Below the pieces are notes generated by a model. The model was not told the DNA's origin and did not search any database. It saw only the letters and a program-made list of their open reading frames with translations. Both the position numbers and the translations under genes were made by a program. 39,699 nucleotides of DNA from a virus, in the IMG/VR virus record IMGVR_UViG_3300047200_000128, positions 1 to 39,699 of that record, one strand, 5' to 3'. Numbering within the stretch: position 1 is the stretch's first letter; the number at the start of each line of letters is the position of its first letter. Shown here in pieces: positions 10,777 to 39,699 of this stretch.

Positions 10777-12741
10777 ATGAACAAGAATAATTTACCAACA
10801 TTAGCAGAAATGCTGGCTAACTATGGCAGAGATGGTGACACCATATTAGCACACATCAATCCCGAAGAAGCGGCTATGCTTAAGCGTATGGGCGGCAGAG
10901 GCACTATCAATCCTCGAACAGGTTTGCCAGAATTTGCTTTTGCTGACGATAGTTGGCAATATGTAAATGCTGATGGTGGTGGTGATTGGAGCGATCCTGG
11001 TGGTTATGATCCTGGAGGTTATGATCCTGGAGGTTATGATCCTGGAGGTTATGATCCTGGAGGTGGTGTTGAACCAAGTCCTGGAGGTGGAGGTGGAGGT
11101 GTTGATCCAGGCTACACAGAACCAGTTTACACAGAACCAGTTTACACAGAACCAGTTTACACAGATCCACCTGCTACAGATCCACCATACACTGAGCCTG
11201 TTTATACAGATCCACCTGCTACGGATCCTCCGTATGTGCCACCTACTGAAGCACCTACAGAATCTATACCAGAGATTATTATTACTGGTGGTCCAGTTGA
11301 GCCTACAGATCCTCCAAGTATTGTTATTACTGGAGGTCCAGTGCCGCCAACAGAACCACCTACTCCAGAAATTACATTTAGTTTTAGTGCTATAGAACCT
11401 ACTGAAGAAGTCAGTGAGATTATTATTACTGGTGATCGTCCAAGTAAAACTGAATTACCATCAGTGACATTTAGTTTTACAGAAACTTTACCACCACCAA
11501 CTGAAGGTCCTATTATTCCTACAGAAGAAATCAGTGAGATTATTATTACAGATATTCGTCCTACTCCAAGTCCTACAGAAGAAATCAGTGAAATTATTAT
11601 TACAACTGATAGACCAAGTAGAACTACAGAATCGTTTAGTTTTACTGATATGACGTTGCCTGAAATTATTACTGAAACAGAAGAAGTCAGTGAAATTATT
11701 ATTACTGGTGATAGACCAAGTAAAACACAAAGCGTGACTGAAACGCTGACATTTAGTTTTACTGATATGACGCTGCCTACTTTACCACCAACAGATACAC
11801 CTGAGATTCCAGAAATTATTATTACTACTGATAGACCTACTAAATCTATTATTGAAACTGATCCACCTACATTGTCGTTTAGTTTTACAAGTATGACACT
11901 ACCTCCTGAAACGGAAACGGAAAGCATACCTGAAATTATTATTACTACTGATAGACCTACAAAGACTATCATAGAAACACTTCCACCTACATTGACATTT
12001 AGTTTTACGGATATGACGTTGCCTACTCTGCCACCAACAGAGCCACCTACAACGCCACCTCCAACTACGCCTCCACCTACAACAGAGCGTCCAACATTTA
12101 CATTCAGTTATACTCCAACATTACCGCCAACGTTGCCACCTACATTGCCTCCAACAATTAGACCAACTTTGCCACCTACATTGCCACCTACACAACCTCC
12201 TCGTAATGGATTAGGATTGAACCCAGGTTTTATCAACCCCAGTGATTTTTATAATACCACGGATGTTGCTCAGAGTAAGTACAACTGGGGCAGTCACGGA
12301 TATCAGGTTGGACCTAACTTTGATGACATTGCTTACAATCAAGCCTATGGCAGTGACCAACCTTGGGGATTACAACAACTTGCTAAACCATTGACAGGCA
12401 GTCAAATAGCAGATTTAATCGCAGGCAAAAATGTGCCACAGGAAGCAATAGCCAAAGCAAGTAGAAGACAAGCGTATAATCCAGCCAGTATGGTGACACC
12501 AAACGCTAACAACACTTATCAACTACCAACTATTCAGGCAGCAGGAGCAATAGCACCTACAACTGCTCCTACTTCTATTAGCCCTACTTCACAAGCACAA
12601 CAAGCCGAGATTGTTAAACAACTTGGTAGTAATTGGATGGAAAGACAACAACGAGCAGCCGCCATAGGCGACTGGGAAACTTATAATCAAATTCAACAAA
12701 CGGTGAATTCGATTATCAATCCAGTAATAGATAGATTCTAA
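10777..12741 (+). CDS. Virion protein with long Pro/Thr-rich tandem-repeat stalk
   Basis: 654 residues. The N-terminal domain (residues 1-65, with DTILAHINPEEAAMLKRMGG and NPRTGLPEF) resembles the head of proteins found in many aquatic phage genomes. Next are YDPGG repeats (residues about 76-96), a Gly run, YTEPV and TDPPATDPP repeats, then residues about 160-450 with seven EIIIT units and a related SIVIT unit, each tied to a DRPTK-like turn and alternating with FSFTDMTLP-like units. A PPTLPPT linker (about 448-475) precedes a conserved-looking C-terminal domain of about 180 residues ending VNSIINPVIDRF. The repeats suggest a stretched beta/polyproline stalk, perhaps surface exposed. Copy number is probably variable between strains. 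Confidence 0.7.
   Translation: MNKNNLPTLAEMLANYGRDGDTILAHINPEEAAMLKRMGGRGTINPRTGLPEFAFADDSWQYVNADGGGDWSDPGGYDPGGYDPGGYDPGGYDPGGGVEPSPGGGGGGVDPGYTEPVYTEPVYTEPVYTDPPATDPPYTEPVYTDPPATDPPYVPPTEAPTESIPEIIITGGPVEPTDPPSIVITGGPVPPTEPPTPEITFSFSAIEPTEEVSEIIITGDRPSKTELPSVTFSFTETLPPPTEGPIIPTEEISEIIITDIRPTPSPTEEISEIIITTDRPSRTTESFSFTDMTLPEIITETEEVSEIIITGDRPSKTQSVTETLTFSFTDMTLPTLPPTDTPEIPEIIITTDRPTKSIIETDPPTLSFSFTSMTLPPETETESIPEIIITTDRPTKTIIETLPPTLTFSFTDMTLPTLPPTEPPTTPPPTTPPPTTERPTFTFSYTPTLPPTLPPTLPPTIRPTLPPTLPPTQPPRNGLGLNPGFINPSDFYNTTDVAQSKYNWGSHGYQVGPNFDDIAYNQAYGSDQPWGLQQLAKPLTGSQIADLIAGKNVPQEAIAKASRRQAYNPASMVTPNANNTYQLPTIQAAGAIAPTTAPTSISPTSQAQQAEIVKQLGSNWMERQQRAAAIGDWETYNQIQQTVNSIINPVIDRF
11005..12203 (+). 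repeat. In-frame tandem repeat tract in the stalk protein gene
   Basis: Near-identical GGTTATGATCCTGGA-type units (about 11000-11063) are followed by GAACCAGTTTACACA units (about 11120-11160). An imperfect longer pattern then runs to about 12110, in which GAAATTATTATTACT (Glu-Ile-Ile-Ile-Thr) alternates with TTTAGTTTTACTGATATGAC, and finally CCACCTACATTG units to about 12200. DNA-level repetition could allow length change by slippage or recombination. Confidence 0.8.
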
Positions 12742-12776: not shown

Positions 12777-13490
12777 ATGAGTGGCGGAAAATCCAACAAT
12801 CAAAGTTCAACAGACCCAAAACTAACGGCTGCTCAAGCAAGTCAGGTTGAGGCACAGAACAAATTCTTTACAGACACATTAGCACCTACATACACGGGTG
12901 CTGTTAAAGGTGCCACTGATGTTTATAATCAGGCAGCAGGTGGCGTGTTAAATGCCGCACAAAATCAAGCTGGAGCAGCCAGACAAGCCCAAGGTGCTTT
13001 AGGAGAAACAGGTGAAAGTGCTTTACGCACTGGTATTGGTGGATTACAGAGTTTATTCAATCCTGATTACGAAAAAAATCAGATTATGAGTGCTCTTGCT
13101 CCCGCACAAAGTCAATACCAACAAAATATTGCTAATCAACAAGCACAATTTGGTGGCACTGGTAATTTAGGTAGTGCCAGACAAGCCTTGGCTGGACAAC
13201 AATTAGCTGGCAGCACACAAAGCCAAATGGCTAAAACTGCCGCTGACATTCAAGCACAGGTAGCACAACAACGAGCAGGCGTGGGCGGACAATTAGCACA
13301 ATTAGGACAAAGTGGTATTGGTCAAGCCTTGGGTGCCGCTGGACAAGCAACTCAGGCTGCTATGACACCACAACAATTATATAATCAGTACGCTTCAGTT
13401 ATATTTGGCACACCAGCAGCCAGTTATAATCTTGGACCAACTGGTAGCAACACTTCAAGCAGTGGTTCAAACATTGGCTTTAAGATTTAA
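12777..13490 (+). CDS. Internal virion (DNA ejection) protein, Ala/Gln-rich
   Basis: 237 residues, very rich in Ala, Gln and Gly, predicted as long amphipathic helices, with a polar Ser/Asn/Gly tail (GPTGSNTSSSGSNIG). The N-terminus (MSGGKSNNQSSTDPKLTAAQ) and the repeated QQ.AQ.G.GNLGSAR.ALAGQQ pattern resemble small internal core or ejection proteins in podovirus virion operons, just upstream of two larger internal proteins. Such proteins are packaged inside the capsid and leave with the DNA to build a conduit. Assignment rests on composition, order and pattern only. Confidence 0.6.
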   Translation: MSGGKSNNQSSTDPKLTAAQASQVEAQNKFFTDTLAPTYTGAVKGATDVYNQAAGGVLNAAQNQAGAARQAQGALGETGESALRTGIGGLQSLFNPDYEKNQIMSALAPAQSQYQQNIANQQAQFGGTGNLGSARQALAGQQLAGSTQSQMAKTAADIQAQVAQQRAGVGGQLAQLGQSGIGQALGAAGQATQAAMTPQQLYNQYASVIFGTPAASYNLGPTGSNTSSSGSNIGFKI

Positions 13491-13499
13491 GGAATAACG

Positions 13500-15953
13500 A
13501 TGAATTATAATCCGTTAGACGACGAAGAAGAACGCAAAAGACGAGAAGCCGCTATAGCGGCTATGGGCGACAACGAACCTGTAGGCAGAGGTCCTGTAGA
13601 TCCAAGTTTTATGGATACTGCTGGGCAATTTATTGGCAACAGAGTTGATTCTGCTATGAACAGAGTTGGACAGGCTGGTAATACATTGATGAATCCTCAA
13701 GCGGCTTTACAACAACGTATGGCTAATGAACAAGAACAAGAAGCAGCCGATACTGAAGTTAGAACACAAACTACTAAAACTTATGGTGATGGCAGTCAAG
13801 AACGAATAGTAAAAACACAGGTTCCTTCTGGTCAAGCACAACAACAAGCACAACAAGCACCTATGGGTGCTATGATGGGTCCTGTTGTTCCAAATAGTCC
13901 TGAAGCACAACAACAAGCACAGCAATTTGCTCAGGCAATGGCACAAGCACAACAACCAAACCGTGGATTGACAACACCTATCGCAGGTATGCCAGATAAT
14001 TTATCTGCTCAAGGTGCTATTTCACCACAGGCAGCACAACAACGCCCTGTAATGGCACAATTACCACAGCCTGGACCAGCAGTTCAAGTTGCGGGTGCTA
14101 CACAAATGCCACCACAGGCAGGACAAGTTGCGGGTGCTCCTGGTGCCAGTTTAGCACAGGCAGGTGCTCAGGCACAGGCACAAGCACAAGCACAGGCACA
14201 AGATCAAGAAAATGGTATCAGCCAACAACCCGCACCCTGGGTTCAGGCTGCCAATGATGCTGGAACTAATTTAACTAAATTATTTGATGTAGCCGCAAAA
14301 CATCCAGAAAGCCGTGATATGATTATTGGCAAAATGGAATTAGCGTTAAAAAATAAAACCAAAGAAGATGAAGCAATGGATATTATAAAGGACGCTCAAA
14401 ATGGCGGACTTAAAGGATTAAACAAACTTCAACAAGCAATCAGACCAGAAAAAGGCAAAGCCAAAGAAGAAGTCACGGTAAATGATTATCTTAAAGCATA
14501 TATGTATAAGCGTTTGGGTTTAGATGCTATGGCTGCTGATGTTCAAAACAAAATTATTGGCAAAGATACAAAATTTGGACAAGTATCAATTGCTGGTCAA
14601 AATTGGCAAGTAGAAACCGATCCAAGCGGACAAATTATCAGAGCCAAAGATGATGAAGGAACTATTGCCACAGAAGCAACTTTAAATAAACTCAGAGCCA
14701 GCGGAGTTAAATCTGGTGGTCAAGCATATGGATTTACTGGCGAATCAAATACTATTCCTGTTGGTCAGCCTGATGCTGGTCAAGAATATCGTCAAAGAAC
14801 TAATAGTGTTAGCGGTGCTATTGAAAATGTTATTACTACTGGTCCTAATGCTGGTACATTATATGGCGGACCTCCTGGTGCTGCGAAAAGTGTTAGCACG
14901 GCTTACGCTAAAGCAGTCAATCAAGCGTTTATTGACTCTGAAACTAAACCTACACTTGCGGCTTCTACTGAAGCATTGAAAAACGCAGGAATGTTGGGTG
15001 AAGACACTTATAATAGAACGTTGGAATCTATTAAACGCAGAGCACCAGATATTTTTAGACAAATTAGTTCAGGACAAGCAGGCACACCTCCAGCACCTAC
15101 TGGCACTGGTGCTACAACTGGCGATAACGCTAAAATGTTGGATAGTTTAAACAGAGATTTAGAAGCTAATACTCGTGAAGTGTCACGATTACCTGCTAAT
15201 GATCCACGCAAAAAAATATTAGCAGAAGAACGCACAAGAACTGAAGCAAGAATCGCAGAACTTGGTGGCAGAGTAGCCCCAAGCGTAGGCGGTGGTACTC
15301 CTGCTCAAGGTGGCGGTGATAGTTTAACTACAATAAAAGGCAAACAAGAAACTGCTGTTGCTATTGATAAAGCAAAACAACAATCCGACATCAACGTTGC
15401 CGAAGCCGCTAAAACAGAACGAGTTAAAGAAAACGCTAAAACTATTGATGCTAAATTAGACCAATTGACAAGTACGCAACGAGTGGCTGATGCTGGCATA
15501 CAAAACTTACAAAGTGGTAATCATTTATTTGGTGGTGGAACAAATCAAATTGAATATTTTAGACAAGCAAATATTCCGCTACAAGAAAGAACTGCTAATT
15601 TTGGCAACACTCAGGCAATTCTTAAATTGGCTGCTACAGACAATTTGGAAACTTTATCCAAGTATATTAAACCATTGAGTAATAGTGATTTGGCATATAT
15701 TGAAAAATTTAATATCAATGAACGTTCAAGTCCTGCCGAAGTTGAAAAATGGCTGGGACATTATTATCGTGCGGCTTCTGCGGCATATCAACGACAAGCA
15801 GATTTATATAACAACCCACAAGCCCCTGCTGGTAAAGCACCACCACCATTATCACCAAGTGGCGGACTCGCAAGTCAAATTCCAGGACAAAATCCTGCTG
15901 CGGCTTCATTGCCAATTCGAAAATTTAATCCAGCAACGGGAAGAATCGAATGA
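13500..15953 (+). CDS. Large internal virion (ejection) protein, Gln/Ala-rich
   Basis: 817 residues. Acidic/basic N-terminus (NPLDDEEERKRREAAIAAMG). Residues about 110-240 form a low-complexity QQAQ / AQAQAQ region, then a helical domain (about 245-330), a more globular middle (about 360-500), a charged coiled coil (about 560-660) and a C-terminal helical domain (EYFRQANIPLQERTANFGNT, and EVEKWLGHYYRAASAAY). The composition and its position between the small internal protein and the AAA+ ejection-type protein, which it overlaps by 4 nt, suggest an internal core or ejection protein. No lysozyme or transglycosylase motif was found. Confidence 0.6.
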   Translation: MNYNPLDDEEERKRREAAIAAMGDNEPVGRGPVDPSFMDTAGQFIGNRVDSAMNRVGQAGNTLMNPQAALQQRMANEQEQEAADTEVRTQTTKTYGDGSQERIVKTQVPSGQAQQQAQQAPMGAMMGPVVPNSPEAQQQAQQFAQAMAQAQQPNRGLTTPIAGMPDNLSAQGAISPQAAQQRPVMAQLPQPGPAVQVAGATQMPPQAGQVAGAPGASLAQAGAQAQAQAQAQAQDQENGISQQPAPWVQAANDAGTNLTKLFDVAAKHPESRDMIIGKMELALKNKTKEDEAMDIIKDAQNGGLKGLNKLQQAIRPEKGKAKEEVTVNDYLKAYMYKRLGLDAMAADVQNKIIGKDTKFGQVSIAGQNWQVETDPSGQIIRAKDDEGTIATEATLNKLRASGVKSGGQAYGFTGESNTIPVGQPDAGQEYRQRTNSVSGAIENVITTGPNAGTLYGGPPGAAKSVSTAYAKAVNQAFIDSETKPTLAASTEALKNAGMLGEDTYNRTLESIKRRAPDIFRQISSGQAGTPPAPTGTGATTGDNAKMLDSLNRDLEANTREVSRLPANDPRKKILAEERTRTEARIAELGGRVAPSVGGGTPAQGGGDSLTTIKGKQETAVAIDKAKQQSDINVAEAAKTERVKENAKTIDAKLDQLTSTQRVADAGIQNLQSGNHLFGGGTNQIEYFRQANIPLQERTANFGNTQAILKLAATDNLETLSKYIKPLSNSDLAYIEKFNINERSSPAEVEKWLGHYYRAASAAYQRQADLYNNPQAPAGKAPPPLSPSGGLASQIPGQNPAAASLPIRKFNPATGRIE

Positions 15954-18610
15954 CACAAAGAATCGAAGTACCTGGTATGGGTATTGTCGAGTTCCCAGAC
16001 TCGATGAACGATGATCAAATTGCGGCTGCCATTAAACAAAATATGGCACAGCAACCGCCTGCGGCACCTAAACAAGAATCTATGTTTAGTGCTACAGGAT
16101 TACCAGCCAAAGCGATGGGTGCTTTTGAAACAGGTTTATCTACATTAAGCGGATTAGCGGCTGTGCCAGCAAGTGCGGCTGCTGGTATTTACGGAACACT
16201 AACCAGTGGAAAATATGGAACCCAAGAAGGTATTAGAACTGGTGATGCGTTAGCCAGACAAGTTCAAGAAAAAATGACATATCGTCCTACTACAGAAAAA
16301 GGTCAAGAATATGTACAAAATGTTGGTCAAGCATTCGAAGCCAGTAAAATACCGCCAATTATGGCTGGTCCTATGGGTATGGTTGGTCTTGGCGGTGCTG
16401 GAGGAAATACTATTCCCAACGCAACCAGATATGCGGCTGGCAGAGCCGTAAATATACCAAAACAAACATATACTGGATTTACTGGAAGTTTAGGTAGTGC
16501 CGAAAACAGACTAATTGCCAAACCTGGCACTTTAGAAGCAGATATACCAGTTTATCAACGTCCAAGTGCGTTAGAACCTGCTGGCAATCAATATATACCC
16601 GATCCTGTATTACAACAAATGAGAAATCAACAGATTACTCCTGAACAAGCCCTTCAAGGAATGGAAAATTGGAATCCTGCCCAAAAAGCCGCATTAGAAC
16701 GCACCAAAGGTATGGTGCCATTAGCAGATCAAAAATGGCAGGGTGTTGGTGAAATATTAGCACAACCATATCAAAGTTGGAAAACTGCTTTACCAAGTTT
16801 ATTGGCTAATGTCGGTGTTCCTGGTTTAGCAGGCTTATATGCTGGCGGTCCTGTTGGTGCTGCCTTGGGTGTATTAGGAAAAATAGGCTTAAATACCGCA
16901 CAAGCAATTAGAACTGGAAATAAAATTCGTGGTGCCAATGAATTAGAAAATGTTGGATTTACTCGTATGACAGATGCTGAACGAGCAGCATTAGCACAAG
17001 CACAAAAAAATCCACAACCATTAAGTCCAGGTCCTATGCCTACTGGTGGAACACCACCACAGACACCACCACCTGCTGGTGGAATGCCACAAACACCACC
17101 ACCAGGTCCAGCACCTATGGGTGGAGCACCTTCTATGGCTGCTCAAACTCCTGCGGCACAAGCGGCTGCGGCTACAACACAGGCTAAAGTACAGCAAACT
17201 ACTGGTGCGGCTGTTCCACAAGCAGAACCACCTATACCACAACCAAAGCCGCAAGCGGCTGCGGCTCCTGCTGTAGAACCAGTGCCGTTAGAAAAATGGG
17301 AGCAACAACGATTACCTCATAAAAATACACCTGTTATTGAACAAGCATTACAAGAAAAAATTGCCACAGATCCAAATCTTGCTGGTTTTGATAAAAATTA
17401 TGTTGTTCCATCTACATTGAGACAACCAGTAAATGATTTTGTCACAGGTAAAACACCAAATATTGTAGCATATGGTGGACCTGGAACTGGTAAAACAAGT
17501 ATGGCTGGTGAATGGCTGGCAAAAAATCCAGGAGGTAAAGTTGTATATTTGGATTCTAATAGTTTTAATGCTAAACGAGCAAGCGGTTTAATTGAAAGTA
17601 ATAAAACCGCACCAGGAAAAACCTTGTATATTATTGATGAAGCAGATAAGTTTGGTAAAAAAATTAGTGCCGAAACTGGTGCCGAAACCTCAAATCCTGC
17701 CCAATTGAGGAATTTAGCAAAATTAAAAGACAATACAGCAAATAGTGTGTTTTTAGCAACTACCAATGATATTAAAAATATACCAGAAATGCTTAAACCA
17801 GGTAAAGGATTTACTTCAGTAAATGTAGACCATCCACTAACTCCTGCCGAACGACAGACATTTGCCTTAAATATTGCTAAAAAGTTTAATGTAGATAAAA
17901 CTCCTGCGGAAATACAAGCAATAGCAGATAACCCTGCGTTAAAAAGTTTTAGGGATATTAAAAACGCTGTTAGTGAAGGTTATAGTTTGAAACGTCCACC
18001 ATCATTTGGTAATGCTCCATTAAAAGGCAGAGTAGATTTACCTGACCAACTAACTACATTGATTGATAATTTTAATGATAACGCAACAAGTAAAAATGTT
18101 TTAATATTTGATAAAAGTGCGTTTAAGGCAGATCCTAAATTATCCGAAAAATTAAATAAGGCTCATCCCATTACTTCAATGACCGACGCTGACATTATTC
18201 CAGAAATGATGATTAAAGGTAGTGCTACAAGTCCAACTTATCGTGTAGTTATTAGAACTAAAGAAGATGCCAGACAATTGTCAAGTTGGAAAGGTACTTT
18301 GGAACGCTCTAACGAATATGAATTACCAACAAGACTTATTATTGAAGATCAATATGGATTATTAGATCCTGCTATACATAGTCGTGCTGAGATGGTTGAT
18401 AAATCATATTTTACTAAACCAGCAGTAAATGCCAAAGCCGTAGATGTTGCCAAGGCAATACAACGTGGTGAAGATTTAGGTATTGTTAAATCACCTAAAA
18501 CACAACCTGAAGTAAAATATAACCATCCTTGGGAAATGCGTAGAGCACTAACTGGCACTATGCCTACAGAACAATTAGAAGCGTTGATTAAGAAAACATT
18601 CCCAAAGTAA
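15950..18610 (+). CDS. Ejection-type virion protein fused to an AAA+ ATPase
   Basis: 886 residues. Residues 1-30 (IEVPGMGIVEFPDSMNDDQI) match the N-terminal signature of many phage internal/ejection proteins. Residues about 45-340 are Gly/Ala-rich with hydrophobic stretches that could insert into a membrane (about 53-85 and 278-315). Residues about 345-450 are a Pro/Ala/Gln linker. Residues about 500-680 form an AAA+ ATPase: Walker A GGPGTGKT at about 509-516, Walker B LYIIDEAD at about 559-566, sensor-1 LATTND at about 602-607, then a helical lid (LTPAERQTFALNIAKKF). The 200-residue C-terminal domain is unrecognised. It overlaps the upstream internal protein gene by 4 nt. Inference: packaged in the virion and delivered into the cell, where ATP hydrolysis could drive DNA uptake or remodel a host target. 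Confidence 0.7.
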   Translation: MTQRIEVPGMGIVEFPDSMNDDQIAAAIKQNMAQQPPAAPKQESMFSATGLPAKAMGAFETGLSTLSGLAAVPASAAAGIYGTLTSGKYGTQEGIRTGDALARQVQEKMTYRPTTEKGQEYVQNVGQAFEASKIPPIMAGPMGMVGLGGAGGNTIPNATRYAAGRAVNIPKQTYTGFTGSLGSAENRLIAKPGTLEADIPVYQRPSALEPAGNQYIPDPVLQQMRNQQITPEQALQGMENWNPAQKAALERTKGMVPLADQKWQGVGEILAQPYQSWKTALPSLLANVGVPGLAGLYAGGPVGAALGVLGKIGLNTAQAIRTGNKIRGANELENVGFTRMTDAERAALAQAQKNPQPLSPGPMPTGGTPPQTPPPAGGMPQTPPPGPAPMGGAPSMAAQTPAAQAAAATTQAKVQQTTGAAVPQAEPPIPQPKPQAAAAPAVEPVPLEKWEQQRLPHKNTPVIEQALQEKIATDPNLAGFDKNYVVPSTLRQPVNDFVTGKTPNIVAYGGPGTGKTSMAGEWLAKNPGGKVVYLDSNSFNAKRASGLIESNKTAPGKTLYIIDEADKFGKKISAETGAETSNPAQLRNLAKLKDNTANSVFLATTNDIKNIPEMLKPGKGFTSVNVDHPLTPAERQTFALNIAKKFNVDKTPAEIQAIADNPALKSFRDIKNAVSEGYSLKRPPSFGNAPLKGRVDLPDQLTTLIDNFNDNATSKNVLIFDKSAFKADPKLSEKLNKAHPITSMTDADIIPEMMIKGSATSPTYRVVIRTKEDARQLSSWKGTLERSNEYELPTRLIIEDQYGLLDPAIHSRAEMVDKSYFTKPAVNAKAVDVAKAIQRGEDLGIVKSPKTQPEVKYNHPWEMRRALTGTMPTEQLEALIKKTFPK

Positions 18611-18612
18611 GG

Positions 18613-18624
18613 TAAATAATAGTA
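18613..18624 (+). promoter_or_regulatory. TAAATA late-like promoter predicting a leaderless Dps-like mRNA
   Basis: GGTAAATAATAGTATG: TAAATA at 18613-18618, and the A of the ATG is exactly 6 nt after its last base. No Shine-Dalgarno can fit between motif and ATG, and the nearest purine run (AAGTAAGG) lies inside or before the motif. Confidence 0.5.
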
Positions 18625-19055
18625 TGAAAACAACTGAACAACTAACACAGGTCTTTTACGACAACTTCGTAGCATACTACAGAAGCCACGCTGCCCACGC
18701 AAATGTCACAGGCAGAAACTTTAGAAGCGACCACAAATTACTACAAGGTGTATATGAACGCAGACAAGCACAGATAGATGTCATAGGCGAACTATTACGC
18801 ACATTACAAGAAATGATGCCCACTGATTTACAAGAAATCATTGAAAACTCAGAACTACCCACAGATGCTATAGAAGGCTCGGCTGATGAGTTGCTACGAA
18901 TGGTTTTGGCTGATTTAGAACAATTATGCGGTTGCTTCCAAGAACTTAATGAAGTAGCAGAAGAAGATGAGCACGATGAGATTGCTAATTACGCACAAGA
19001 ACAGATTTTAGATTTGAATAAGAGTATTTGGATGTTGAATAGCACTTTAGAATAA
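18624..19055 (+). CDS. Dps-like ferritin-family protein
   Basis: 143 residues, all-helical. Residues about 7-60 (LTQVFYDNFVAYYRSHAAHA, then NVTGRNFRSDHKLLQGVYE and IDVIGELLRTL) match the Dps family pattern AHWNVxGxNFxxLHxxF. Compared with E. coli Dps, the ferroxidase ligands H51, H63, D78 and E82 have equivalents; D67 is Gln. Later helices (SADELLRMVLADLEQL; EQILDLNKSIWMLNSTL) match Dps helices, including the W-M-L near the end. Family members form dodecamers that oxidise and store iron and protect DNA. It has its own late-like promoter with no leader and converges tail-to-tail (9-nt overlap) with the acetyltransferase. Its short N-terminus lacks the Lys-rich DNA-binding tail of E. coli Dps. 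Confidence 0.7.
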   Translation: MKTTEQLTQVFYDNFVAYYRSHAAHANVTGRNFRSDHKLLQGVYERRQAQIDVIGELLRTLQEMMPTDLQEIIENSELPTDAIEGSADELLRMVLADLEQLCGCFQELNEVAEEDEHDEIANYAQEQILDLNKSIWMLNSTLE

Positions 19056-19535
19056 ACGCTTGTAAGCGTATGACCCACGCACATCATAACCTGCCTTTTG
19101 GTGAAGTTTAAGAAATGCTTGTTGGTCATTACGCATAGTAGTAGAACAGACGATAGGACTTTGACTCAATAATGCGAAACCTTCCCATAATTGTATCATA
19201 TCTTTTATTAGCATCACTCTGCTTCTACTTGTTAGGCGTAGATCAAGGTGTGCCATTCGCACCCCAACCATCTTATCGTCACTCCACGGAGCAAAATCGT
19301 TAGTCTTTGCCCAAGTGTAAGCAAGTAGATTCCCATTAGGTTCTACAGCAACGCTAAAGAGTTCGGTAGTAGGTTTATAGAATTGATTGATAATTGCCAA
19401 GGTAATATTTCGAGAATATGTAATTGGCTCAGGAGTAAAGATAGTATCTATTTCGGTTTGGAAGTTGGCTTCAGCCAAGGCTACAATAGCAGAGACATCT
19501 GTGCCTAAAGCTGGTCGCCAAATATATGAGTTCAT
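19047..19535 (-). CDS. GNAT-family N-acetyltransferase, the only reverse-strand gene
   Basis: 162 residues. The N-terminus IWRPALGTDVSAIVALAEAN is the typical first beta-alpha unit of GNAT enzymes. Residues about 80-95 (LFSVAVEPNGNLLAYTWAKT) fit beta 2-3, and residues about 140-160 (QAFLKLHQKAGYDVRGSYAYKRL) fit the C-terminal helix and strands. The acetyl-CoA motif (Q/RxxGxG/A) is not obvious, so the enzyme may be diverged. Substrate unknown; phage GNATs can modify host proteins or toxins. The start has AAAGGA on its strand (19542-19547). Its promoter region is shared, back to back, with the small terminase gene. Opposite orientation suggests a cargo (moron) gene. Confidence 0.65.
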   Translation of the reverse strand: MNSYIWRPALGTDVSAIVALAEANFQTEIDTIFTPEPITYSRNITLAIINQFYKPTTELFSVAVEPNGNLLAYTWAKTNDFAPWSDDKMVGVRMAHLDLRLTSRSRVMLIKDMIQLWEGFALLSQSPIVCSTTMRNDQQAFLKLHQKAGYDVRGSYAYKRLF

Positions 19536-23796: not shown

Positions 23797-24756
23797 ATGA
23801 AGATTTTTATTAGCATAGCGAGTTATAGGGACCCGCTGTTAGCAAATACGGTTAAAGATGCTTACGATAACGCACACCACAAAGATAGTTTAGTATTCGG
23901 TATAGTAGATCAAAGTTATGGAATGGAAACATTTGACCCAAACTATTTTGCGTTTAAGAAACAAATTAGATATGTCAGGATAGAACCACATTTAGCCCGT
24001 GGTGCTTGTTGGGCAAGACATTTATGCCAGACATTATATAACGAAGAAACTTACTATTTCCAAATAGATAGTCACACTATATTTGACAAAGACTGGGATT
24101 TATATTTTATTGAGCAGTATAGACACATAGAACAATATCACGCTAATCCTGTTATCAGTAGTTATCCATATCCCTTTGATATTATTGACGGAGATTTAAC
24201 TAACTTGAAAAAAGGACAAACCAGTAAAGATTGTATGTTGTTGGCTGTCAATGAAGAACATACATTTAAGAATGACAAAGAACAACACGCCAGTATTCGT
24301 GGAACTTACTTGGCAAAATATGAACCTTGTCACGCATTTTTAGTTGCTGGTGGATGTTTGTTTGGTCCTGGACATTTAGTAGAACGAGTGCCTTATGATC
24401 CGCATATCTATTTCAGCGGTGAAGAATGTAGTTATGCTTTAAGACTATGGACACACGGCTATAACTTATTTCATACTTGTAAGATGCCAGTGTATCATCA
24501 ATATATTGGTAAGTATAGAAACAAGGCTTGGGCAGATAAAATGATTGAACCGCATACGCAGACTAAATGGCACGAATATAGCACGGCTGGTAAAAGCCGT
24601 AGTTGGCGTGTGACTACAGGTAAAGAACTTGGTATCTATGGATTAGGCACTAAACGCTCACTTAAACAATATATTGATTTTTGTGGATTAGATTACATCA
24701 ACCAAAAATATACTGACAAAAAAGTAGCAGAATTAAATTATAAGGACCCAATATGA
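23797..24756 (+). CDS. GlcNAc-transferase-like glycosyltransferase
   Basis: 319 residues. Residues about 4-35 (IFISIASYRDPLLANTVKDA, then DSLVFGIVDQS) match the start of the Skp1-type GlcNAc-transferase family. DSHTIFDKDWD at about 91-101 gives the DxH/DxD-type nucleotide-sugar and metal site. Residues about 180-240 (FLVAGGCLFGPG, then FSGEECSYALRLWTHGYNLF and PVYHQY) match the family's conserved EE..ALRLWT.GY segment. It probably moves a sugar from a UDP-sugar to a protein or other acceptor. The acceptor is unknown; a virion protein is a natural guess because the gene lies between large terminase and portal. The next gene overlaps its stop by 4 nt. Confidence 0.8.
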   Translation: MKIFISIASYRDPLLANTVKDAYDNAHHKDSLVFGIVDQSYGMETFDPNYFAFKKQIRYVRIEPHLARGACWARHLCQTLYNEETYYFQIDSHTIFDKDWDLYFIEQYRHIEQYHANPVISSYPYPFDIIDGDLTNLKKGQTSKDCMLLAVNEEHTFKNDKEQHASIRGTYLAKYEPCHAFLVAGGCLFGPGHLVERVPYDPHIYFSGEECSYALRLWTHGYNLFHTCKMPVYHQYIGKYRNKAWADKMIEPHTQTKWHEYSTAGKSRSWRVTTGKELGIYGLGTKRSLKQYIDFCGLDYINQKYTDKKVAELNYKDPI

Positions 24757-38741: not shown

Positions 38742-39490
38742 TGACTACACTCTACACGTTATTCTTTGAAGCGGAACCAGATAATCCAGTGGTCTTTTAT
38801 GTCGGGCATACCAATGATGTAGATAGACGCTGGGCAGAGCATATCAATAACGCTTTTAATGAAAATCATCAAGAGTATGAGACATACAAGTATCGCTGGA
38901 TAAGAAGCTTAAAAGATATGGGTATCGAATGTCAGATGGATGTACTACACGAGATAAGCACAGACGATGACACCGAATACGAATGGATCTTAAAGATTGC
39001 CAGAATGAACCTACGATTGGGTATAGAGTTCTATGATGGTTATCCCTTGACAAATATGAAGGCTGGTGATTTATTGACAGAACTGATAGCGTGTAAATAC
39101 GTGACCACTAAAGAAGATATTACCAAATACAGACAGGCTAAAAAGCATACTATCACTTATACTAAAAGCGATGGCACAGAGGCTGAGAGTTATACAACCA
39201 AAGGGGCAGCGATCATCGCTGACTTACACAGACAGGCAGATGCGGCAAGAGCCGAAAGACACAGACAGAGTATTAAACAGATTGCCAGACAGGCACAGCA
39301 AAAGATTGACTTACAAGATCCAGGTAGAACAGCGAAGTTAAAGCAACAAACCAGGGATTTATTGTATGCTGATTTATTGGCAGGCTGTATTAAATGGCAG
39401 GAATATAACCAAATGATGTATGATTTACACGGAGGTTATGAGGCTTGGACAGAGACAAAGCCTCAACTATTGATAAGAAAGGACAAGTGA
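38741..39490 (+). CDS. GIY-YIG endonuclease, full length
   Basis: 249 residues. Residues 1-65 carry the GIY-YIG fold: LYTLFFEAEP (first strand, Y), VVFYVGHTNDVDRRWAEHIN (YVG, the catalytic Arg and the EH helix), then a YKYRWIRSLKDMGI helix. Residues about 65-120 continue the nuclease domain; residues about 120-249 are a charged helical tail rich in Arg, Lys and Gln. It could be a free-standing homing-type endonuclease or a nuclease acting in phage DNA metabolism. Its position directly before primase and the presence of a diverged copy at the other window end mark the locus as variable. One-base overlap with the next small gene. Confidence 0.8.
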   Translation: MTTLYTLFFEAEPDNPVVFYVGHTNDVDRRWAEHINNAFNENHQEYETYKYRWIRSLKDMGIECQMDVLHEISTDDDTEYEWILKIARMNLRLGIEFYDGYPLTNMKAGDLLTELIACKYVTTKEDITKYRQAKKHTITYTKSDGTEAESYTTKGAAIIADLHRQADAARAERHRQSIKQIARQAQQKIDLQDPGRTAKLKQQTRDLLYADLLAGCIKWQEYNQMMYDLHGGYEAWTETKPQLLIRKDK

Positions 39491-39582
39491 TGACTGAATA
39501 TGAAGGATTGATGATAGACATATTGAAAAAGATATGCGAGAAACTGGATGACATAGCCAGAGTTATTGATGAAAGGAATTGA
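39490..39582 (+). CDS. Very small protein (30 aa) between endonuclease and primase
   Basis: MTEYEGLMIDILKKICEKLD, then DIARVIDERN: one amphipathic helix. It starts on the endonuclease stop (TGATG) and ends just before the primase ATG. It is absent from the corresponding junction at 559-561, where the endonuclease stop overlaps the primase start directly. So this is a small insertion or deletion between the two variants of the locus. May be non-functional. Confidence 0.4.
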   Translation: MTEYEGLMIDILKKICEKLDDIARVIDERN

Positions 39583-39583
39583 T

Positions 39584-39699
39584 ATGAAAGATATATTATT
39601 AGAGCATCAAGAGAACTGGAGGTATTGTAGAGTTAGAGCAGGAGAAAAGAAGCCATATCCAGCAGATTGGCAAAATAATCCGCTACGATTACACGAAGT
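39584..39699 (+). CDS. Primase-polymerase, N-terminal part (repeat of 561-676), cut by window end
   Basis: The first 38 codons (MKDILLEHQENWRYCRVRAG onward) are identical in DNA to 561-676. The ribosome site is GAAAGGAATTGAT here instead of AGAAAGGAAAAGTG. This confirms ATG, not the upstream GTG, as the primase start. Most likely the same gene seen twice because the contig closes on itself. Confidence 0.8.
   Translation, partial: MKDILLEHQENWRYCRVRAGEKKPYPADWQNNPLRLHE
39584..39699 (+). repeat. Terminal direct repeat with 561-676
   Basis: 116 of 116 bases match 561-676, ending exactly at the window end. The sequences just upstream differ (39583 back to 38931 against 560 back to 1 are only partly identical). 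A perfect match that ends at a contig border is the usual sign of circular assembly or of a terminally redundant, permuted genome. Confidence 0.85.

Follow-up and report, generated by a model that had tools for sequence, protein, structure and literature searches.

Ejection proteins of podoviruses, such as T7 gp14, gp15 and gp16 and P22 gp7, gp16 and gp20 (PMC8954989), share several features with the product of ORF 15950-18610 in our window, which is the whole stretch of DNA analysed, a virus record of 39,699 bases. In the available part of that source the likeness extends to genome position, a hydrophobic Gly/Ala-rich part, a neighbouring peptidoglycan hydrolase, rapid divergence and domain swapping; however, the same part mentions no AAA+ or other ATPase, whereas the window protein carries an AAA+ module. 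Polyvalent proteins (Iyer 2017, PMC5512222) also bear effector domains, on proteins believed to enter the host together with the phage genome, and a head of the window type is found on ART-PolyVal proteins as well. On the other hand, 'AAA' is absent from the accessible text of that paper, which also states that a layout of N-terminal delivery part and variable C-terminus is not that of polyvalent proteins, whereas the proteins found at the position of the window gene in related phages (hereafter slot proteins) do have that layout. No polyvalent domain (ART, MPTase, MTase-helicase, PBECR and others) was detected in the window protein, for which Pfam, PHROG and NCBIfam show AAA-type matches only. 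The MuF polymorphic toxins of temperate phages (PMC5576092, in the portion available) likewise combine an N-terminal phage part with a variable C-terminal payload; the window protein has no match to a MuF domain in Pfam, PHROG or NCBIfam, and the slot and the following dps-like gene are separated by 13 bases only, with no immunity gene between them. P1 DarB, as described in PMC5512222, is an ATP-using enzyme of the virion that acts on entry against restriction, as is proposed here for the window protein, but it is a SWI2/SNF2-class ATPase with a methylase and another delivery part, whereas the window has AAA+; together with N4 vRNAP and T4 Alt from the same text it represents the ejected enzymes, the kind to which the window cargo is proposed to belong. 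The T4-type clamp loader gp44 and RFC are the closest AAA+ proteins by profile, in a clade not separable from RuvB, but the window gene lies in a late module and its domains after the AAA+ core are unlike theirs. We would file the product of ORF 15950-18610 among ejection proteins with enzymatic cargo, putatively as a variant form, and a literature search by title and abstract start returned no description of ejected AAA+ cargo or of polymorphic ejection proteins.

The window contains Prim-Pol and VapE-like genes, and its TerL shares 50% identity with the TerL of one Manatee Spring podovirus and about 33% with the TerL proteins of Pseudomonas and Vibrio phages; a host search with TerL in genome contigs gave no match. 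Structural genes flank ORF 15950..18610 on both sides, and the putative portal and capsid genes among them were assigned by position, without a family match. Directly upstream, within the same ejection/structural module, lies an ejection-protein candidate of 817 amino acids (13500..15953, forward strand), preceded by a conserved gene for a protein of 237 amino acids (12777..13490, forward strand). Among ten scanned homologues of the upstream candidate, three have an SLT and one a VanY domain, in keeping with an ejectosome that includes a peptidoglycan hydrolase, as presented in the available part of PMC8954989. On the other side, a dps/ferritin-like gene (18624..19055, forward strand; PF00210, E 6e-13) serves as the anchor of the slot in relatives. 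It stands directly 3' of the slot in the window and in relatives. A reverse-strand ORF (19047-19535, 162 amino acids) overlaps its end and is kept in most relatives, with no family match.

ORF 15950..18610 (forward strand, as are all features within it) starts with an ATG, overlaps the stop of the upstream gene by 4 bases and, by its translation and Pfam, encodes an ejection-type protein of 886 amino acids with AAA+ cargo. The first-pass annotation had paired a VPGMGIVEFPD N-terminus of ejection type with an AAA+ module in this one gene, and the pairing holds, within the module described above. The head (residues 1-39; 15950..16066), delimited by motif, profile match to the slot protein of L128 and structure model, includes the VPGMGIVEFPD motif at residues 7-17 (15968-16000) and is predicted to be beta-beta-alpha, with pLDDT 87-95 over residues 1-30. 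A Gly/Ala-rich trunk (residues 40-350; 16067..16999), defined by iterated profile and structure model, ends in a predicted long helical hairpin at residues 259-334 (mean pLDDT of the model 62), and leads into a Pro/Ala linker (residues about 351-455; 17000..17314) with boundaries set by eye, the two regions appearing in the order already reported. The AAA+ core, D1 (residues 456-690; 17315..18019), rests on Pfam, PHROG, hhalign and the alignment with the slot protein of another contig, L142. Its Walker A, Walker B and sensor 1 had been called intact, and are located at residues 509-517 (GGPGTGKTS; 17474-17500), 558-566 (TLYIIDEAD; 17621-17647) and 602-607 (LATTND; 17753-17770). Domain D2 (residues 691-830; 18020..18439), a possible degenerate AAA+ without an ATP site, is followed by a short C-terminal module, EMRRAL...LEALIKKTFP (residues 856-885; 18515..18604), that also turns up within the slot protein of L018 (60%) and that of L014 (41%). 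The GC content of D1 and D2 is lower, at 33-35%, but their third-position GC resembles that of the trunk, so recent import is not concluded from the lower value. A chimeric assembly was considered and appears unlikely: the gene is in frame, the flanks on both sides come from the same phage group, and L142 independently joins AAA+ to the dps-like gene.

A DNA pattern search of viral contigs for PGxGxVEFPD found 33 stretches with 24 distinct heads, the contig of L128 being included a second time as L186. In all 33 there is a Met 6-9 residues before the motif, which places the motif at the N-terminus; the frame opens, at a stop or contig edge, no more than 19 codons upstream of the motif in 24 of them and is open for 41-80 codons in the other nine. 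When 31 head proteins were scanned (two very short ones, cut by contig ends, were set aside), PHROG DNA ejection protein was matched by three, DNA transfer protein by one, ART-PolyVal (Pfam) by three, and tail associated lysin and tape measure by one each. Very large proteins, the longest stretch with 2562 amino acids, start with a VPGxGIVEFPD-type head in L164, L192 and L194, that of L164 with ART-PolyVal. Residues 13-155 of the window protein are 38% identical to the 'DNA injection protein' of MW202713 (E 1e-17), another part of which belongs to a PHROG DNA ejection family (phrog_26400, E 2e-38), and similarity to this annotated ejection protein is confined to those N-terminal residues. A PHROG scan gave the window protein itself no ejection-family match, and the trunk model retrieved one uncharacterised phage protein from BFVD and no solved ejection protein from PDB. 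From the head, the similarity to annotated ejection proteins and the upstream gene, we regard it as quite probable that the product of ORF 15950-18610 is an ejected protein.

The AAA+ assignment of D1 is given by Pfam AAA (PF00004, residues 507-616, E 7.6e-10, 39.8 bits with the cut-off at 21.2) and by PHROG, where the best matches are clamp loaders (E 3.2e-8 for the window protein). Against a gp44 alignment, D1 reached 97.6% in hhalign (E 4e-12), and single-sequence hhalign gave RuvB (6e-7), T4 gp44 (5e-6), FtsH (4e-5), RavA (2.5e-4) and DnaX (0.011). In the single-sequence comparison RuvB ranks no lower than T4 gp44, the two being about alike, and gp44 is closest only as an alignment profile; the comparison points to no single clade. 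The module of the window and that of L142 are about 36-38% identical (E 4e-55), and both retain Walker A, the Walker B Asp-Glu, sensor 1 TTN and an FRDIK motif that is out of register with gp44. The conservation of these motifs between copies about 36% identical argues for D1 as a working ATPase, as judged from the alignment. No arginine finger was seen in D1 by eye, in the alignments, at the position of the clamp-loader SRC box.

D2 is conserved in L142. By eye, its segment RLIIEDQYGLLDPAIHSRA looks like sensor 1 plus the SRC box of clamp loaders; it includes LDPAIHSRA, ending at 18388. A model of D1 and D2, for which two sequences were used, was of low quality (mean pLDDT 55.7), and its whole-model Foldseek matches, with TM about 0.2, were discarded. 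The low-confidence D2 model aligned with RFC subunits (VIA) with Z up to 8.7 over 118-124 residues at rmsd 3.3-3.7 A, in a comparison biased to AAA+ because its candidates had been picked on the whole AAA+-containing model. Profile comparison of D2 by hhalign was non-significant with gp44 (E 0.11), DnaX (0.45) and D1 (0.058), and a search of PDB sequences gave one weak poxvirus match only. From the fold comparison and the motif seen by eye, D2, earlier described as an unknown domain of 200 residues, may perhaps be a second AAA+ module lacking an ATP site, a weak lead that the sequence comparisons do not support.

The slot was compared across relatives found with TerL (225, the best 80 of which were used) and with the dps-like gene (78 loci); 153 loci were read, and a locus was kept if it had a dps-like gene preceded by 1 kb or more of sequence. 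This gave 61 distinct ORFs upstream of dps, of which 58 abut it, the exceptions being L100, L115 and L147; the ORF of L147 is the upstream gene, and its VanY match was excluded from the count of slot cargo. L004, nearest by backbone, has TerL 95%, dps 89% and the reverse-strand gene 93% identical to those of the window, and its slot protein does not match the window protein significantly. In L142, whose TerL is 83% identical over the 241 residues available and whose dps is 64% identical, AAA+ and the following domain occur at about 36% in the same slot, with a C-terminal end that differs from the window after D2; the L142 contig is cut on the 5' side, so that the protein's head is missing. The slot protein of L128 has the window's head, continues with a stretch that is otherwise characteristic of proteins bearing different heads, and has no AAA+. 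Of 62 slot proteins (the 61 plus the window), 19 match an iterated profile built on residues 41-350, and all 19 have at least 476 amino acids (best of 372 reversed or shuffled control sequences, E 0.07); the remaining slot proteins are mostly shorter, with other heads, some made of short tandem repeats. Such repeat heads occur in L111, L129, L034 and L204 (FDPDAFLA, YSxLSDEEL, EYVxDPELLKKLN), and suggest that valency may matter for packaging.

Pfam finds AAA in two of 61 slot proteins (a set that includes the window and leaves out the near-duplicate L097), an N6-methyltransferase below the curated cut-off in one, and otherwise scattered weak matches; by Pfam and PHROG most slot payloads have no recognisable activity. 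In L015 (L015:3513-6758) residues 803-914 match PHROG DNA methyltransferase families (E 1.2e-17), and this methyltransferase-like SAM domain occupies the place of the window's AAA+; no NPPY-type motif was found in it, so the domain may be inactive. The exchange is clearest between L204 and L205, which are 90.6% identical in nucleotides up to L204:6062, do not align over the next 597 bases (375 in L205), and then return to 95.4% identity; the second aligned stretch starts at L204:6660, within the final codons of the gene. The break falls at GGSMEMMS, a motif type present in 11 of the 19 trunk proteins and also in L142, L153, L204 and L205, and not in the window protein. As far as these alignments tell, the slot gene is mosaic, made up of heads that can be swapped, a common trunk of about 250 amino acids and mostly unrelated C-termini. 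Relatives keep the flanks and swap the C-termini, and the C-terminal half, including AAA+, is therefore very probably exchangeable cargo and not a core entry motor. The survey of relatives that the first-pass annotation suggested bears out an exchange of the ATPase part, and a constant separation of the two halves into different genes was not seen among them. The whole window protein has no relatives in viral contigs, where profile and both single sequences recovered L142 as the only further copy of the AAA+ module; genome contigs yielded none. Phage records held no match to D2 or to the L142 module and only weak clamp-loader-like matches to the window's C-terminal part, and a plasmid search returned weak AAA matches only.

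We propose that head and trunk get the protein packaged, and that it would travel alongside the DNA down the short tail to reach the host envelope, where the hydrophobic trunk probably remains with the entry conduit and the C-terminal cargo would end in, or facing, the cytoplasm. There, as infection begins, AAA+ and its partner domain would spend ATP on remodelling a complex of the host or one bound to DNA, most likely disarming a defence or redirecting host machinery. The layout of head, trunk, linker and swappable C-terminus fits the delivery of an early-acting effector, and ejected proteins act before phage gene expression and so are in a good position to be the first to encounter host defences; 'effector' is nevertheless an extrapolation, given that most slot payloads lack recognisable activity. 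To the whole reading, an ejection protein delivering an exchangeable AAA+ remodeller early in infection, we assign a probability of roughly 55%, with two AAA+ copies in the slot, that of L142 cut at its start. Counter-defence or host take-over is our best guess for the role of the cargo, at about even odds.

The annotation had also raised the idea that the ATPase could pull DNA in. An AAA+ motor at the cytoplasmic end of the ejection conduit would suit a module carried by an ejection-type protein in an ejection module, and a genome ejection motor has been proposed for phage DEV (PMC10925440, by its title), but AAA+ occurs in only two of the 61 slot proteins scanned, and relatives with TerL 95% identical do without it. 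These relatives enter with other payloads, so entry in this group does not depend on AAA+; a general motor is disfavoured, and we regard this explanation as unlikely. Slightly less likely is an AAA+ chaperone acting on heads or ejection proteins in the infected cell and at most incidentally packaged. The location within a late structural module agrees with it, as do the AAA+ chaperones (MoxR, BCS1, Clp-like) proposed for virion assembly in jumbo phages (PMC7824862, in the part available), but fusion to an ejection-type head and trunk does not, nor does the lack of AAA+ in most slot proteins.

The remaining alternatives concern the nature of the ATPase. A pseudo-ATPase retained as a binding or structural part could be read from the missing trans arginine finger where clamp loaders have the SRC box, yet the Lys of Walker A, the Asp-Glu of Walker B and the Asn of sensor 1 persist in two copies that share 36% identity, and D2 keeps a candidate SRA box, which makes a dead enzyme improbable. 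A replication ATPase, such as a clamp loader, that became joined to a structural gene would account for the best PHROG matches and for the gp44 alignment, but the RuvB scores and the wrong genomic module count against it, and a Pfam scan of 19 of the 40 listed window ORFs showed no clamp or DNA polymerase; we give this origin very little credence. Beyond the preferred reading of an ejected, exchangeable AAA+ remodeller, a bolder version is offered only tentatively, namely a polymorphic ejection system with interchangeable heads, a membrane-prone trunk and payloads swapped at a junction motif, in which the window payload would be a tandem AAA+ whose half without an ATP site supplies the arginine finger. 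If such a system exists, closely related phages would re-arm through it for different hosts or defences. The slot comparison alone separates the delivery part from the payload, closely related freshwater phages differing strongly here, and mining the slot beside the easily recognised dps-like gene could show what phages inject besides DNA.

Elsewhere in the window, the structural module includes a protein of 654 amino acids (10777-12741) with many degenerate Thr/Pro-rich repeats (EIIIT seven times, FSFT five times), and a GlcNAc-type glycosyltransferase (23797-24756; PF11397, E 3e-53) is encoded between the terminase and portal genes. The ends of the window, 1-676 and 38930-39699, repeat each other at 87-96% identity with one indel, which suggests a near-complete genome, putatively terminally redundant or circular, with diverged copies of a GIY-YIG-type gene.
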